Assembly (NCBI GenBank): GCA_015655335.1
Contig: JAATFF010000106.1
Location: 1-64,000 of the forward strand
Source: Lysobacterales bacterium
GTDB taxonomy: Bacteria > Pseudomonadota > Gammaproteobacteria > Xanthomonadales > Rhodanobacteraceae
DNA: 64,000 bases
Direction: 5' to 3'
The stretch's first letter is position 1, and every line of letters begins with the position of its first letter. Shown here in pieces: positions 24,626 to 33,224 of this stretch. The notes beneath the pieces were generated by a model, which saw nothing but the letters and a program-made list of their open reading frames with translations, was not told where the DNA came from and did not search any database. Both the position numbers and the translations under genes were made by a program.

Positions 24626-27600
24626 ATGCGTTCTGTGCTTGCGATCTGCGCGGTATTCAAGGATGAAGCGGCCTATCTGCGCGAATGGGTCGAGTTCCAT
24701 CAGCTGATGGGCGTAGAGAAGTTCTATCTCTACAACAACAACAGCTCGGACCGATACCTGGACGCGCTGCAGATGCATATCGACTCGGGCGCCGTGGTGA
24801 TCCACGAATGGCCGCAGCGTCCCGCCCAATTGCAGGCGTACGAGCATTGCCTGAAGGCCCATGGCAGCGAAACGGATTGGCTCGCCTTCATCGATATCGA
24901 TGAATTCCTGTTTTCGCCCAACGCAAAACTGCTGCCCGATGTGCTGGCCGATTACGCCGATCACGTTGGCGTAGGCGTCAACTGGGTGATGTTCGGTTCG
25001 GCCGGCCACACGCAGAAGCCAGCAGGCGGCGTGCTTGAAAACTATCTGAAGCGCGGACAACTCGACGGTGGCGTGCCTTATCCGCATCTTCGCCTTCCCA
25101 ACGGCAGTTACCGTCCGGAGAATTCGCATATCAAAAGCATCGTGCAGCCGTCCAAGGTCGCCAGCTGTCCGAATGCGCATTTCATGCTGTATGCCAATGA
25201 CGCACGTGCCGTCGACGAAAACGGCCAGCCCATTGAAGGCCCGTTCACCGCCAAGGTGTCGGTCGAGAAACTGCGTATCAACCACTATTGGAGCAAGTCG
25301 GAAGAAGAATGCCAGTACAAGTTCGGCAGAGGCTTCGCCGACGGCCAGGGCGCCCGCGACTGGAACGAATTTCTGGAGCACGAAAAAATATTGAATGCGG
25401 TGCACGACGACGTCGTGTTGCGCGTCATTGCACAACTTGGCGTGCTGCCGCCGAAGTGGCCACTGGAAACCTTTGTCCGTAACGATGAAGGCGTGTGGCA
25501 TTCGCCCCTGCGCGATCGTCCCGTGCACAAGGGCATCCACACCACCGCCACGCGCCTGTTCAATGTGATGCAGGAAGCGACGGATACCAGTCTTTATTCC
25601 GCAACGCTGGTCAAGGAGATCCATAGCCGTACCAGCGCGCTGCATTTATCTCCACGCCGCGCCAACCTACTGCATGCCTTCGACGGCGACGCCGAAGGCA
25701 GCCGCGTGCTGGACATCGGTTGCGGCGGCGGTGTAATGACTCAGGCATGGGTCGAACGTGGCTGCGCCGTGGACGCCATCGAATATGCACCGCACTGGGC
25801 TCGCGTGGCTGCAGCGCGCATGCGCGAACAACCGCAGGTCCGCGTCTTTCAGGCAAGTCTGCGCGAAGTCGAGCTGCGCGCCGAATACGATGTGGTGTCG
25901 CTCACGTGGGCAAATGATTATGCCGAAGCGTGGCCGCGCGATGGAACGTTGCGCGAAGCGATCGAGATCGCTGTCGCCGCGCTCAAGCCCGACGGCATCC
26001 TGCTGCTCAGCATCGCCAATCGCCAGGCCGATCCTGGCAATCGTTCGGTGCCCACGCGCCCTCAGCTTGAATCGGCGCTGCGCACGGCAGGACTTGTCCA
26101 TATCGATGCCCAACTCGCCTTTCCGGATGCGTTGCTTCCGGAGGTGCTCGTTTCCGAACAGGCACTTGCGGTCTCCACCGATTGGCGCGTCGACGATCTC
26201 ATCGCGCAACGGCCCTTCTTGCGCGACGCCGGCAACGAGGCTGCGCGCTGGGAAATGCACCTCGAAGCGGGCACGTTATCGTCGTATGCGCCGGGCCTGC
26301 TTTTGATCGCGCGTCGCGAGGGCACGCCCTCGCCGTTGCGCGCCGACGTACTCGCACAGAGTTTCGCCGACAATCGCGTTCCCGCACTCAACACGGTGAC
26401 CGACTACGTTTTGGAAAATGGCGCCGTCCGCATCGCACCGCGCCGGATGCTGGCCGATCCGATCTGGAACACCTCGGCGTTCGAGCAAGTGCTCGAATCG
26501 CGCAGCCATACGCCTGGGCGCTCGTTGTTGGTACAAGTTCGCAAGGCCATCTACGAGCAACGCACCGACAAGATGATCAGCCTGTTGCGCCAGTGGGGCG
26601 CGCTGGTTTACGCGCAGGCCGACGACGAGGACAAGATTCCCGCAGACTGGCTGGATGCCGTGCCTTCACACGTGTATCTGGAAGCCGACGGCAGCCTGGC
26701 GTATCGCGGTGGTGAATGGCACGCGCGGCAGTCGATCGAGAAGCAGATTCCGGTGTATGTCGGCCTCTGGCAGATCGCTTATGAAAGCGGGCTTGAATCC
26801 CTGCTTGGTTTGTCATCACCCATCGAGCGCGTTACATGGCTATGCAAGCGCCTGCTGATCGACGCTTCGGCGGAATGGATCGGACACGGACGCAACATCA
26901 ACGAATCGTTCGCCCGCGAAATCCACGGGGGCGATTGCTGGAACCGTACCGACCGGCATCTGAAAATCATTCCGGAGTGGCTGATTCCACCGCCGCCCTC
27001 GGATCTCTACAAACATTGGCAGGCGCAGCAGCAGCTGAGCGACACAGCGATTGCGCAGGCCATGCGACGTATTGAAAAAATCGGCGCGCCACCACGTATC
27101 CAGGTATTGCTGATCGACAACGCCAACGATCTGGATGCCGTGCAGCGAACTCAGGCAAGCCTGGAGGCGCAGCACTATCCGCACTATCAGCTCAGCGTGA
27201 TCGCCAGCGACGATGCGCTGATGGCGCAGATCAACGGCGAGATCTCCGCCAGCGATGCCGACTGGGTGCAACTTATCTACGCCGGCGACCTGCTGCATCC
27301 CGCCACACTCTTGTTATTGGCCGAACGCGTCGCGTCGCATCCCTATCTTCGCGCGGCTTATTTCGATGAAGACACGCACGTCAACGGTGTTTTCGAAAGC
27401 CCGATTTTCAAGCCCGACTTCAATCTCGACATGCTGCGCAGCTATCCCTATGTCGGACGCGCGATTGCCTTCGTGCGGCAGCGCTGCACGGAGCTGGGCG
27501 GCCTGGATGAACGCTATGGCGACATGGCCGTCCACGACCTGCTGTTTCGCCTGATTGAAAAAGACGGCTTGCATACGATCGGCCATATCGGCGAGGTGAT

Positions 27601-29626
27601 GCATCGCGCCGCGCTTCCCTACACGCATTGGCTGGCCTCCGACACGGTGAAGTCGCATAGCCCGGAGATCGTTTCCAGCCATCTAAAGCGCATCGGCATT
27701 TCGCACACGATGGAGTCGGGTGCGCTGCCCGGCTTCAACCGCGTGGTGTATCAGCATGCGCACAAGCCGTTGGTATCGATCATCATTCCGACGCGCGACC
27801 AGTTGCCATTGTTGAACGGCCTGATCGACAGCCTGTTGTCGAAAACGAGCTATCTCCAATACGAACTATTGATCGTCGACAACAACAGTGCAGAACCGGC
27901 GGCCTGCGCCTATCTCGACGGCATTGAGCGCCTCAACAGCGCACAGCTTCGCGTACTGCGTTATCCGCATCCGTTCAACTACTCGGCCATCAACAACTTC
28001 GCTGCCGCCCAGGCGCGTGGCGAATACCTGATCCTGCTCAACAACGATACGGCCGTGCTGCACGAGGATTGGATCGAAGCCTTGCTCAACCACGCGCAAC
28101 GTCCGGAAGTGGGCATCGTGGGTGCCAAGCTGCATTATCCGGATGGCCGCATCCAGCACGGCGGTGTCGTGCTGGGCCTGCGCGGGCCGGCCGATCATCC
28201 GTTCATCGGTCAGCCGATGGAAGCGGACGGCTATATGCATCGACTGCGCGTCGATCAGAACTACACCGCCGTTACCGCGGCGTGCCTGATGATCCGCAAG
28301 TCGGTATACGACGAAGTAGGCGGCCTGGACGAAGAGGATTTCAAGGTTTCCTACAACGACGTGGACCTGTGCCTGAAGGTGCAACAAGCCGGCTATCTCA
28401 CCGTGTGGACACCTTACGCGCGCCTGATGCACGTGGGCAGCGTCAGTCAAATCAAAGTCGATAAAACCGCACAGGATGCCAAGCAGCTGCGTTTCCAGGG
28501 CGAGCAAAATGCGATGTATCGCAAGTGGCTACGCCACATTGCGCGCGATCCGGCGTACAGCGTCAATCTCAGCATCGAAGGCAGCGGCTTCGAACTCAAC
28601 TCCCAACGCGGCAAAGCGTGGCAACCGTTTGCCAATCCGCTGCTGCCGCGCATGTTCTGCGTTGCCGCCGATGCGCACGGTTGCGGTCACTATCGCATCG
28701 TGCAGCCGTTTGCCTCCATGCAACGCAGCGGCATGGTCGAAGGCATGATCGCCGGAGTGCATTTGTCGCCCGTGGCGATGGAACGCTTCCAGCCGACTTC
28801 GCTGGTACTGCAACGCCAGGTCACCGACGCGCAAATCAAGCTACTGGAGAGTTACCGCGATTTCTCCGGCGCCTTCAAAGTGTTCGAGCTCGACGACCTT
28901 ATCCAGCAGATTCCTGTGAAAAGCATGTTCCACGGCGCCATGCCGAAGGACATCATGAAGTCCTTGCGTCGCGCACTCTCTACGGTGGATCGTTTCGTCG
29001 TATCGACCGATACGCTGGCGGAGCAATTCAAAGGCTTCCACTCCGACATTCGCGTAGTGCTCAACCGCCTGCCCGTCAACTGGTGGGGCGATCTGAAGAA
29101 TCAGCGTGGCGTCGGCCGCAAGCCACGCGTTGGCTGGGGCGGTGGCTCCAGCCATCGCGGCGACCTGGAGCTGATTGCCGACGTGGTGCGCGACCTGGCC
29201 GATGAAGTGGAATGGGTGTTTCTTGGCATGTGTCCCGACAAGCTGCGCCCCTACGTCCACGAATTCCATAGCGGCGTACCGATCGAGGAATATCCGCGCA
29301 AACTCGCTTCGCTCAATTTGGATCTGGCACTGGCGCCGCTGGAAGAAAATGTCTTCAACGAGTGCAAAAGCAATCTACGCTTGCTTGAATACGGCGCCTG
29401 CGGCTTTCCGGTGATCTGCACCGATATGGTGTGCTATCAGAATGACTTGCCGGTGACGCGCGTAAAGAATCGATACAAAGAGTGGACGAGCGCGATCCGC
29501 ATGCATCTGGATGACCTGGATGCCAATGCCAGAGCTGGCGACACCCTGCGCGATGCCGTGAGAAAAGACTGGATGCTGACCGACGACAACCTGGTTGCCT
29601 GGCGCGATGCGTGGTTGCCGAACTGA
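24626..29626 (+). CDS. Giant multidomain glycosyltransferase: GT92-like, SAM methyltransferase, tandem GT2-like and GT4-like domains; probable flagellin glycan assembly
   Basis: CAVFKDEAAYLREWVEFHQLMGVEKFYLYNNNSSD (GT92/DUF23-like), VLDIGCGGGVMTQAW (MTase motif I), VSIIIPTRDQLPLLNGLIDSLLSKT...LLNNDTAV (GT2), C-terminal LNLDLALAPLEENVFNECKSNLRLLEYGACGFPVICTD (GT4-like). Confidence 0.88.
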   Translation: MRSVLAICAVFKDEAAYLREWVEFHQLMGVEKFYLYNNNSSDRYLDALQMHIDSGAVVIHEWPQRPAQLQAYEHCLKAHGSETDWLAFIDIDEFLFSPNAKLLPDVLADYADHVGVGVNWVMFGSAGHTQKPAGGVLENYLKRGQLDGGVPYPHLRLPNGSYRPENSHIKSIVQPSKVASCPNAHFMLYANDARAVDENGQPIEGPFTAKVSVEKLRINHYWSKSEEECQYKFGRGFADGQGARDWNEFLEHEKILNAVHDDVVLRVIAQLGVLPPKWPLETFVRNDEGVWHSPLRDRPVHKGIHTTATRLFNVMQEATDTSLYSATLVKEIHSRTSALHLSPRRANLLHAFDGDAEGSRVLDIGCGGGVMTQAWVERGCAVDAIEYAPHWARVAAARMREQPQVRVFQASLREVELRAEYDVVSLTWANDYAEAWPRDGTLREAIEIAVAALKPDGILLLSIANRQADPGNRSVPTRPQLESALRTAGLVHIDAQLAFPDALLPEVLVSEQALAVSTDWRVDDLIAQRPFLRDAGNEAARWEMHLEAGTLSSYAPGLLLIARREGTPSPLRADVLAQSFADNRVPALNTVTDYVLENGAVRIAPRRMLADPIWNTSAFEQVLESRSHTPGRSLLVQVRKAIYEQRTDKMISLLRQWGALVYAQADDEDKIPADWLDAVPSHVYLEADGSLAYRGGEWHARQSIEKQIPVYVGLWQIAYESGLESLLGLSSPIERVTWLCKRLLIDASAEWIGHGRNINESFAREIHGGDCWNRTDRHLKIIPEWLIPPPPSDLYKHWQAQQQLSDTAIAQAMRRIEKIGAPPRIQVLLIDNANDLDAVQRTQASLEAQHYPHYQLSVIASDDALMAQINGEISASDADWVQLIYAGDLLHPATLLLLAERVASHPYLRAAYFDEDTHVNGVFESPIFKPDFNLDMLRSYPYVGRAIAFVRQRCTELGGLDERYGDMAVHDLLFRLIEKDGLHTIGHIGEVMHRAALPYTHWLASDTVKSHSPEIVSSHLKRIGISHTMESGALPGFNRVVYQHAHKPLVSIIIPTRDQLPLLNGLIDSLLSKTSYLQYELLIVDNNSAEPAACAYLDGIERLNSAQLRVLRYPHPFNYSAINNFAAAQARGEYLILLNNDTAVLHEDWIEALLNHAQRPEVGIVGAKLHYPDGRIQHGGVVLGLRGPADHPFIGQPMEADGYMHRLRVDQNYTAVTAACLMIRKSVYDEVGGLDEEDFKVSYNDVDLCLKVQQAGYLTVWTPYARLMHVGSVSQIKVDKTAQDAKQLRFQGEQNAMYRKWLRHIARDPAYSVNLSIEGSGFELNSQRGKAWQPFANPLLPRMFCVAADAHGCGHYRIVQPFASMQRSGMVEGMIAGVHLSPVAMERFQPTSLVLQRQVTDAQIKLLESYRDFSGAFKVFELDDLIQQIPVKSMFHGAMPKDIMKSLRRALSTVDRFVVSTDTLAEQFKGFHSDIRVVLNRLPVNWWGDLKNQRGVGRKPRVGWGGGSSHRGDLELIADVVRDLADEVEWVFLGMCPDKLRPYVHEFHSGVPIEEYPRKLASLNLDLALAPLEENVFNECKSNLRLLEYGACGFPVICTDMVCYQNDLPVTRVKNRYKEWTSAIRMHLDDLDANARAGDTLRDAVRKDWMLTDDNLVAWRDAWLPN

Positions 29627-29812: not shown

Positions 29813-31057
29813 TCAGGACTGCAGGTAATCGAACAAGCTCGTTCCCTGCACCTTCGCAAACACCTGTTGCGAAGCCTGCAGCGCCGTCGATTGCAGCGAC
29901 AGATTGCTGATCGCCGTCGCCATGTCCACGTTTTGTACGTCCGACAACGCGCTCTGATACGTCACGCCGAGATCCGAATAGCTGGTGCTCTGCTGCTGCA
30001 ACGTATCCATGCGGCTGCCTACGGCAACCTGCGTGGTGGAAACGCTGTTTATCGCCTGGTTCAGCGATTCCAGCTGGCGGTTCATGGTATTGGCGATCGA
30101 CGTGGCGCTGCCACCGCTTTGCAACGCGGCAATCATGTTGTTGAGCGTGGTGAATACGTCTTGCGTGTTTGAAGCGGTATCCGATTGAACGCTGACCGTA
30201 TCGCCTGCGGCCGGTGTCCCGCTCATGGTGACGGAGATGCCGTCGAAGCTGATGCTGCCGCCGTCCTGATAGGTACCGGTGATAGGGTTGCCGCTGCTGT
30301 CGGTGACGGGATTGCCGGAGGAATCCGTTACGGCGTATGTGCCGTTCGCACCGAACGTGATGGTGTCGTTTATCGGACCCGATGCCGTCGCGGCACTCCA
30401 GGCGTTGGTGTCGGTAACGCTGTTCGCGCCGACCACCAAGGTTCCGGTATTGCTGCTGTTAGCGCTGGCCACGAACGAGCCATTGCCGGCGGCAAGATTC
30501 ATGAAGATCGAACTGCCGGGATCGCCGTTGGCTACTTGCAAGCCCGTACCGATCGCCGTGAAGGACTGCTGATCGTTGCCGGCATACGTCACTGCACCCG
30601 TGTCGCTGTTGGTAACGAACGGTGTAGTGGTGTTGCTGGTGCCGGCGAAAAGCGCCTGTCCGTTCGCGTCGGGTGTGTTGGCCAGCTGGATCAGCTGATC
30701 GCGGTATTGCGTCAGCTCGGTCGCCATATTGCTGAGGTCGGCGGAGGACATCGCACCGTTGATCGCACCCAGCCCAACGTCATTCACGCTATTGAGCAGG
30801 TTGCCGACGGAAGTAAGGGTGCTGGTTTCCGTGGACAGTCGCGTGTTGGCGCTGCTGATGTTGTTGGTGTACTCGGTGTTTTCGGCCAGGATGTGGTTCA
30901 AGCCGACAATCTGCGCCGCACCCACGGGGTTGTCCGATGCCACGTTGATGGCATCGGTCGTGCTGACCTCGTTTTGCGTCTGCGCCAGCTCGGCCTGCTG
31001 ATTGAGCATGGTGCTTAGCGATTGCTGGTACATCCAGCTGGTAGAGATGCGCATCAT
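29813..31057 (-). CDS. flgL: Flagellar hook-filament junction protein FlgL
   Basis: MMRISTSWMYQQSLSTMLNQQAELAQTQNEVST. Confidence 0.96.
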   Translation of the reverse strand: MMRISTSWMYQQSLSTMLNQQAELAQTQNEVSTTDAINVASDNPVGAAQIVGLNHILAENTEYTNNISSANTRLSTETSTLTSVGNLLNSVNDVGLGAINGAMSSADLSNMATELTQYRDQLIQLANTPDANGQALFAGTSNTTTPFVTNSDTGAVTYAGNDQQSFTAIGTGLQVANGDPGSSIFMNLAAGNGSFVASANSSNTGTLVVGANSVTDTNAWSAATASGPINDTITFGANGTYAVTDSSGNPVTDSSGNPITGTYQDGGSISFDGISVTMSGTPAAGDTVSVQSDTASNTQDVFTTLNNMIAALQSGGSATSIANTMNRQLESLNQAINSVSTTQVAVGSRMDTLQQQSTSYSDLGVTYQSALSDVQNVDMATAISNLSLQSTALQASQQVFAKVQGTSLFDYLQS

Positions 31058-31059
31058 GA

Positions 31060-31331
31060 TAAGAGCCTGTCTAGGGTCTCGGCGTAGCCCGCGTTGTCAC
31101 GGTGCGGTCGCCAGGTGGTAGTGCGGGGCGCAGCGCCTGACTGGCTGTCAGGCCAAGCCGCGCGCTGCCGCATGGCGGCCGCACCGTGACAACCCGAAGG
31201 GCCGGGTCTGTTTGCCCGTCGGGCTGCGTCCTCTCTCAGTTGTGTATCGACATACACGCCTTCGTTCCTCCTTGCCCGACTGGCGAACAGATCCCGGCGC
31301 GGGCCACGCCGAGACCCTAGACAGGCTCTTA
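31060..31331. mobile_element. MITE-like nested inverted-repeat element between flgK and flgL
   Basis: TAAGAGCCTGTCTAGGGTCTCGGCGTAGCCCGCG (31060-31093) and its inverse at 31298-31331 (33/34 match), TA at both ends, two internal hairpin arms; no ORF assignable. Confidence 0.7.
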
Positions 31332-33224
31332 ACCGTCCTGTATTGCGGTGATCAGGCTGGTGAAGATCTGCTGGGCAGTCGAGATCACCTGCGCCGATGC
31401 CTGGTAAGCCTGCTGGAACTGCACCAGGTTCGCGGCTTCCTGATTCAAGTTCACGCCGGCGAGACTTTGCTGACTGCTTTCGGCCTGACCGAAAAGATTG
31501 GTCTGCGTGGTGAGTTCCGCATTCGCCTGGCTACCGGCAGAACCGATCTGCGCGGTGAGGTTGGCGTAGCTCGCCACCACCGACGTCTTGCTGCCGTCGA
31601 GCACGCCGGCATCGGCCAGCGACGCCAACGCCGTGGCATTGCTGCCGTCGTTGAGTCCGTTGGTGTTGGCCGCGACGGTGAAGCTATCGCCGCTGGCCGG
31701 CGTGCCACTGAGGCTCAGGCTCCAGCCATCGGCGGTGATCGGCTGACCGGCGGTGTAGGTGCCGTTGGTCGTGTTGCCTGCGCCGTCGGTAACGGTGTAC
31801 GTACCCCCGGCACCGAAGGTCACCGTCGCGCCGGAAAGCAGATTCGCGTTGCTGGCATTGGTAACGCTGACCGCACCTGCCACCCCGCTACCGGTATTGG
31901 TCGTTGCCGCGCTGGAAGTCAACGCCGCGGCGGCCGCAATGCCGTCGGAACCGGTCATGGTGACGGCGAGTGAACTGGCGGCATTGCGCGTGGGTTCGAT
32001 CTCGTAGCTATCGCCCGTCTGGGCAGTGCCCGACACGCTGAAAGTAAGACCGTCCGCCGAGAGCGTCCCGTCCGAATTGGCCGTGAGCGGTACGTTCTGT
32101 CCGGTGGTGGTCGCCAGGCTCCAGCCATTGGTGCCAGTGCCCGAACCGGTGTAGCTCAGGATGTAGTCCGAACTCGTGAGTTGCGACACATCGCTAACGG
32201 AAGCACTCACCGTTGCGCCACCCGTCGAATTCTTGCTCGACGGAAGCACGGACGGCGAGCCCACGCTGAAAATGGCTTGCCCTTGCTGGCCGTTGAGATC
32301 CAAACCTTGCGCCTGCTGTCCGTTGACGCTGGACGCCAGGGCGATCGCCGATTGACCGAGCGCGTTCTGCGCAGGCTCCAACACCGTGTTGCGGTAGCTG
32401 ATCAACGCGCCCAGCGTGCCGCCGGTCAATTGTGACGTGACATCGTTACCGGAGCTGTCGAACACATCGGTACTGGAGGGATCGTACTGATTGTCCCCCG
32501 AGGACAACGCATAGGATTGGGTACCGCTCACCAGGGTTTCTCCGGCGGAGGTATACACGCTGATCGCACCGTTGCTATCGGTCGCGGCGGAGATACCGGT
32601 GAGTCCCGCCAATTGCTGCACCAAGTTGTCGCGCTGATCAAGCAGGCTGTTCGGATTGCTGCCTACCCCGGCTTGCGCAATCTGCCCGTTGAGGGCGGCA
32701 ATTTGCGAACTGAGACTGTTGATGCTGGTGACGGTGTTGCCGATCTCCTGGTTGACCTCAGTCGATTGCTGGCTGAGCTGCTGGCCGAGCGTGTTGAACA
32801 CGCTGGTCAGCGAAGATGCATCGCCCAGCGCGGCCTGTCGTACCGACGACGAACTCGGCGAGCTCGCCACGCTACTGAAGCTGCTATAGAAATTGTCCAG
32901 CGCGGTTTGCAGGTTGCCGCTGTTGCTCAGCAAGCTGTTGAGCGTGCCGGTGAGATTGGCCGATGTCGTGGCGCTCTGCATGCTGCTGTTGCTGCTCCAC
33001 AGCGCGCTGGTCAGGTACTGGCTGTAGGCGCGCTGCACCGCGACGACATTGACGCCGCCGCCTATCGTGTACTGGCCGTTGCTTTGCGCGATGGTTTCGA
33101 CTTGCAGCACGCTTTCTTCGCTGTAGCCGCTGGTGCCGGCATTGGCGATGTTGTTGCTGACCGTGCTCAGCGCAACCTGGGCTGCATTTAACCCGGATAT
33201 GCCGATGTTGAGCATGCTGGACAT
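31329..33224 (-). CDS. flgK: Flagellar hook-associated protein FlgK
   Basis: MLNIGISGLNAAQVALSTVSNNIANAGTSGYSEE. Confidence 0.97.
   Translation of the reverse strand: MSSMLNIGISGLNAAQVALSTVSNNIANAGTSGYSEESVLQVETIAQSNGQYTIGGGVNVVAVQRAYSQYLTSALWSSNSSMQSATTSANLTGTLNSLLSNSGNLQTALDNFYSSFSSVASSPSSSSVRQAALGDASSLTSVFNTLGQQLSQQSTEVNQEIGNTVTSINSLSSQIAALNGQIAQAGVGSNPNSLLDQRDNLVQQLAGLTGISAATDSNGAISVYTSAGETLVSGTQSYALSSGDNQYDPSSTDVFDSSGNDVTSQLTGGTLGALISYRNTVLEPAQNALGQSAIALASSVNGQQAQGLDLNGQQGQAIFSVGSPSVLPSSKNSTGGATVSASVSDVSQLTSSDYILSYTGSGTGTNGWSLATTTGQNVPLTANSDGTLSADGLTFSVSGTAQTGDSYEIEPTRNAASSLAVTMTGSDGIAAAAALTSSAATTNTGSGVAGAVSVTNASNANLLSGATVTFGAGGTYTVTDGAGNTTNGTYTAGQPITADGWSLSLSGTPASGDSFTVAANTNGLNDGSNATALASLADAGVLDGSKTSVVASYANLTAQIGSAGSQANAELTTQTNLFGQAESSQQSLAGVNLNQEAANLVQFQQAYQASAQVISTAQQIFTSLITAIQDG

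Follow-up and report, generated by a model that had tools for sequence, protein, structure and literature searches.

We found that the DNA between flgK and flgL in the stretch analyzed here (64,000 nt, termed the window) is one copy of a MITE family that is dispersed in Dyella and other Rhodanobacteraceae. This copy contains a Shine-Dalgarno (SD) sequence followed by an open reading frame (termed the bridge ORF) that stops at the flgL start, which is the main point and was overlooked in the initial annotation. It belongs to a lineage of ∼30 Dyella copies (clade J), for which the sequences show mobility, the ORF itself, its restriction to the clade, a fixed orientation, and the proximity of the ORF stop to the downstream start. 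We consider it likely that clade J is a non-autonomous, IS5-type MITE lineage of Dyella with a translated bridge, adapted to sit inside operons.

The element between flgK and flgL

Both flagellar genes were confirmed as NCBIfam equivalogs on the minus strand (Table 1). The initial annotation described an outer inverted repeat matching at 33 of 34 positions, two inner arms (A and B) arranged in a three-way junction, and a flgK stop codon formed at one edge of the element, and our analysis bears out all of these. The outer arms are 34 nt long and 97% complementary (33/34), and the repeat comparison recovered both inner arms, with arm A matching exactly at 31093-31112 and with a single mismatch at 31174-31193 (chance expectation, 0 matches). 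The flg-sense strand is predicted to fold into the three-way junction (-196 kcal/mol, z = -15.8 versus shuffles), and the + strand also gave a stable predicted fold (-211.7, z = -18.8 versus shuffles). Comparison of copies set the bounds of the MITE copy proper, which is flanked by TAA/TTA, and the distance to the flgL ATG, previously given as 3 nt, is 4 nt from the element proper or 2 nt with the flanking TA included.

Table 1. Features of the flgK-flgL region in window coordinates
Feature	Coordinates	Strand	Remarks
Element proper (268-bp MITE)	31062..31329	.	Ends AGAGCCTG...CAGGCTCT, common to ~108 aligned copies; empty sites in relatives
Left outer arm/TIR	31060..31093	+	3' end in flg sense; opens with flanking TA; pairs compensated across copies
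Right outer arm/TIR	31298..31331	+	5' end in flg sense; flanking TTA is TAA (flgK stop) on - strand
Arm A module	31093..31193	+	Missing from short copies L004 and L005
Arm B	31201..31298	+	Conserved internal loop (SD complement); apical GTGTAT-CGAC-ATACAC hairpin
Shine-Dalgarno AAGGAGG	31267..31273	-	9 nt before GTG; mostly unpaired in predicted sense mRNA
Bridge ORF	31054..31257	-	GTG to TGA, 67 aa; stop overlaps flgL start (ATGA, 31057-31054)
flgK	31329..33224	-	TIGR02492; stop TAA 31331-31329(-), the 5' element edge in flg sense
flgL	29813..31057	-	TIGR02550; ATG 31057-31055(-), overlapping the bridge ORF stop

A known structured RNA family was rejected, as no Rfam family matched the element at the gathering threshold. 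We also rejected the outer stem as a strand-specifically selected RNA structure, since its mismatches across copies are as often G.U (48) as A.C (46), without strand asymmetry, and it is better read as a TIR. In arm A, mismatches on the + strand of the 108 copies were G.U in 581 cases versus A.C in 29 (20:1), the outer stem and arm B being symmetric; in most lineages, selection seems to act on the + strand of arm A (the flg-antisense strand at this locus) in a single-stranded, folded form. The small CC-GAA-GG hairpin at 31194-31200 reads CC-TTC-GG in other copies, an inversion that looks like the result of a flip during replication across it. Downstream of flgL, a 1666-aa ORF (window positions 24626-29626) looks like a multidomain glycosyltransferase/methyltransferase, judging from its sequence only.

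We then looked at the distribution of the family. The genome of the window contains two more full-length copies (88% and 87% identical) plus partial copies, and all 15 congeners gave matches (more than 15 in some of them), as did other genera of Rhodanobacteraceae. The element is absent between flgK and flgL in each of the 19 named relatives examined, which belong to Dyella and Rhodanobacter apart from a few MAGs, and the gap measures only 2 to 23 nt in the alignment (e.g., GGACGGCTAATCATGATGCGC). On account of these relatives, the window is presumably from Dyella as well. The genes eno and ftsB are contiguous in 15 of 15 other congeners, being split by 268 bp only in G011. The element is thus a member of a multicopy family, not a single-copy sequence conserved at flgK-flgL, and with its 268 bp, 34-bp inverted ends, dispersed copies, and lack of a transposase it is a MITE, as the initial annotation had supposed.

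Members of the family carry one of several end "flavors" on a shared core, and short modular derivatives consist of the ends only (∼55 bp), the ends plus arm A, or the ends plus arm B (L259, L261, L264, L004, and L005). Copies with another end flavor (CTTTCATATTCCAAG; L026, L029, L036, L126, L139, L171, and L175) have ATGAAAGCAGGCTCT in the terminal repeat, in frame with the adjoining gene (MKAGS...), to which it possibly supplies the start codon.

Target duplications of IS5 elements are TNA in the IS1031 type and TA/YTAR in other subgroups. In clade J, T..A stands on both sides of 16 of the 30 copies, with the same N in 8, and TA/TA in this register was found only once in 30; flavor-3 copies have TA/TA flanks in 21 of 26 cases. 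The clade J flanks seem to fit a TNA duplication better than the plain TA duplication first proposed. The accompanying idea of an IS630/Tc1-mariner helper was dropped on the basis of flanks and ends: the matching transposase belongs to an IS5-type (DUF4096) insertion sequence, ∼855 bp long, of the same genome (ends TAAGAGCCTGTTCACGATCTT). The terminal repeats of this insertion sequence have TAAGAGCCTGTT in common with the MITE, and it also shares the ends of other flavors; the likely helper is therefore an IS5-type (DUF4096) transposase. A second such insertion sequence, in G010, has the ends CTAGGGCGTGTTAACACTAT. No autonomous insertion sequence with the exact clade J TIR was found, the matches inspected being family copies or short derivatives. 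One congener, G003, contains ∼25 near-identical DUF4096 transposase copies, the ends of which were not resolved by a simple inverted-repeat scan.

The bridge ORF in clade J and in sister lineages

In the lineage of the window, the flg-sense strand reads GGCAAGGAGG-AACGAAGGC-GTG, and the frame is then open to the element end. The GTG is paired in the predicted fold, where it lies in the apical hairpin. SD, start codon, and a stop on or near the downstream start are what would be expected of a translational-coupling leader. In relatives, flgL is preceded by an AGGA, which here has come to lie 268 nt from the gene, and flgL probably depends on the ribosomes brought by the bridge ORF, because no good SD is present between the element and flgL. 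The initial annotation suggested that the element may control flgL: control of translation appears plausible in light of these features, and for transcript processing no site emerged from the analysis.

Clade J was delimited on a tree of the cores without the element ends and counts 30 copies including L003, with a support of 0.99 for the node with L003 and 0.65 for the node of 29. The frame is open in 29 of the 30 copies, the exception (L111) being frameshifted and in an operon context. Recurrent stops interrupt this frame in sister lineages, where it often starts with GCG. A tblastn search of 46 genomes gave the same picture, with ∼29 top matches free of internal stops and 1 to 5 stops in most lower matches. 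Start codons were GTG in 28/28 copies of the clade versus 18 GTG, 12 GCG, and 1 GTT outside, AAGGAGG was found in 26/28 copies versus 10/31, and copies contained 0 stops versus mostly 2 to 5.

Relative to the clade consensus, the 222 substitutions comprise 137 nonsynonymous (154 expected), 85 synonymous (61 expected), and 0 stop changes (6.8 expected), counted over copies that are related and hence not independent. Four orthologous pairs, which occupy a common site across species, showed 35 nonsynonymous and 14 synonymous codon changes, which is near neutral. From the missing stops and the near-neutral changes between orthologs, it seems that the open frame is kept and the peptide hardly so. 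Among the copies fetched from other genera, stop-free ones have an ORF that does not end near any start, and we rejected coupling outside Dyella on this ground.

Insertion into operons and a candidate mechanism

Evaluation of the insertion sites showed that clade J copies between co-oriented genes are sense in 27 cases and antisense in 0, compared with 22:28 outside the clade (Fisher test, 1.5e-7). The junctions occupied include flgK|flgL, uppS|cdsA, sdhA|sdhB, nuoI|nuoJ, nuoK|nuoL, nuoL|nuoM, eno|ftsB, leuS|lptE-like, fliP|fliQ, and parA|parB, and further copies lie directly before flgG, flgB, murA, mutM, tssE, and an RND permease. These flanking genes are real operon pairs, with lptE and some upstream partners assigned by reading the sequence rather than by a model match. 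At 23/23 sites, the ORF stop and the downstream start are no more than 20 nt apart, compared with 5/23 and 2/23 for the other frames, the 23 sites being those with an assignable start and not a blind sample; starts came from a simple codon-score caller, with an NCBIfam check for part of the sites only. The overlap is exactly ATGA at 7 of the 23 sites. About half of them have an ORF that ends at the element edge, where proximity follows from a nearby start and is not independent evidence. The putative coupling is better supported by the copies that read past the edge, in all of which the start has the same relative frame. Counting against coupling are an SD between element and gene at L002, L014, and L116, the location of L024/L115 at divergent gene pairs, the frameshift of L111, the in-frame continuation of L015, and the predicted pairing of the GTG.

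Insertion between cotranscribed genes is usually expected to be costly, through separation of the ribosome-binding site and polarity. An insertion just upstream of a start codon would cut the following gene off from its native ribosome-binding site and place its start beside a 30-bp stem. We propose that AAGGAGG, exposed in the open loop of arm B, is bound by ribosomes, which begin at the GTG and, over ∼65 codons, pass through and melt arm A as well as the 3' half of the outer stem; termination at or next to the downstream start codon, here that of flgL, would be followed by reinitiation, so that operon insertions would be tolerated. We infer from the sequence comparisons that ribosomes translate the ORF, that FlgL is maintained through coupling, and that operon tolerance has been selected. 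It is also reasonably probable, with somewhat less assurance, that the lineage lost ancestral stops and gained a strong SD and a GTG, that insertions into essential operons became nearly neutral, and that such operon-transparent transposition is a survival strategy general to small mobile elements.

An ordinary MITE could give part of this picture, if only intergenic insertions survive in compact genomes and the open frame is due to chance in a recently amplified lineage. It would account for dispersed TIR copies, short derivatives, and an IS5-type relative, and long open frames are frequent in GC-rich DNA, including in copies outside Dyella. However, sister lineages in the same genomes are inserted both ways round and mostly away from stop-start junctions, the stop changes expected among the 222 substitutions are missing, and the relative frame and the stop-start distance are nonrandom, which makes this explanation unlikely. 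That the ORF encodes a functional small protein, its position by start codons being secondary, is very improbable: the mild synonymous excess against the consensus speaks for it, but the orthologous pairs change almost neutrally, the peptide has no Pfam or NCBIfam match (two grounds on which we rejected a selected peptide), and the stop-start overlap would be left unexplained.

We give equally scant credence to a split ribosome-binding site, in which the outer stem would bring an SD at the flgK end to the flgL start with the element untranslated. The stem does link stop and start over 30 bp, with outer pairs compensated across copies, and a native SD-like AGGA is left at the flgK end, yet the outer pairing is kept equally in lineages without orientation bias and has the balance of G.U and A.C expected for TIRs, and the ORF, its SD, and its frame would find no explanation. 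An orientation-specific promoter or RNA-processing site given to the downstream gene would agree with the fixed orientation, and both promoters and RNase cleavage are known from other MITEs (PMC10969869). A consensus scan for sigma-70-like promoters and terminators found none in the element, for which reason an internal promoter or terminator was rejected, and this proposal, which also fails to explain the open frame and the overlap, is extremely unlikely.

Relation to known systems

By analogy, the closest described mechanism to the proposed translation of the bridge is that of integron attI1 ORF-11 and the short ORFs of attC sites, from which ribosomes are fed downstream by termination-reinitiation; reading matters there, not the peptide, and translation relieves stem-loop barriers (PMC8876359). 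In clade J as in these sites, an SD precedes a short ORF located in a recombination site or stem-loop, and the coupling is putatively common to both. Unlike in integrons, where the ORF belongs to the integrase site and cassettes, the clade J ORF spans a MITE and is carried into many chromosomal operons. Correia and ERIC elements are likewise palindromic MITEs that lie near genes and affect their expression, but the effects described are IHF binding and RNase cleavage, and no SD-led coupling ORF was found for them in the literature searched. The Chunjie MITE of Geobacter, inserted in an operon and reported, according to the title of the work (cited in PMC10969869), to leave the operon structure undisturbed, resembles clade J, as far as that title tells, in being a MITE within an operon. 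The literature searched contained no Dyella or Rhodanobacter MITE and no MITE with translational coupling.

The occurrence of one cassette at ∼25 operon junctions, for which the stop-bearing sister copies serve as controls, constitutes a natural repeated experiment. It makes testable how a mobile element turns harmless to translation, what gives rise to intercistronic regions and small ORFs, and how strongly termination-reinitiation can carry the expression of essential genes. Bridge frames may be annotated as hypothetical proteins.

To date, the ORFs known from MITEs form fusions with proteins. Rickettsia palindromic elements and the ORF fusions of enterobacterial RU/ERIC elements resemble clade J in being small, palindromic, and mobile and in having a conserved ORF, but their insertions are in frame within proteins or give fusions with them, whereas the clade J ORF is separate and ends at the next start; the RU paper makes no mention of an SD, start codon, or operon. 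In-frame insertion of the Rickettsia type was not what we found, as the clade J copies lie between genes and only L015 continues in frame. In this copy (G001:C9:697174-697440), the bridge ORF runs on for >900 nt beyond the element and may have fused to a gene or replaced one.
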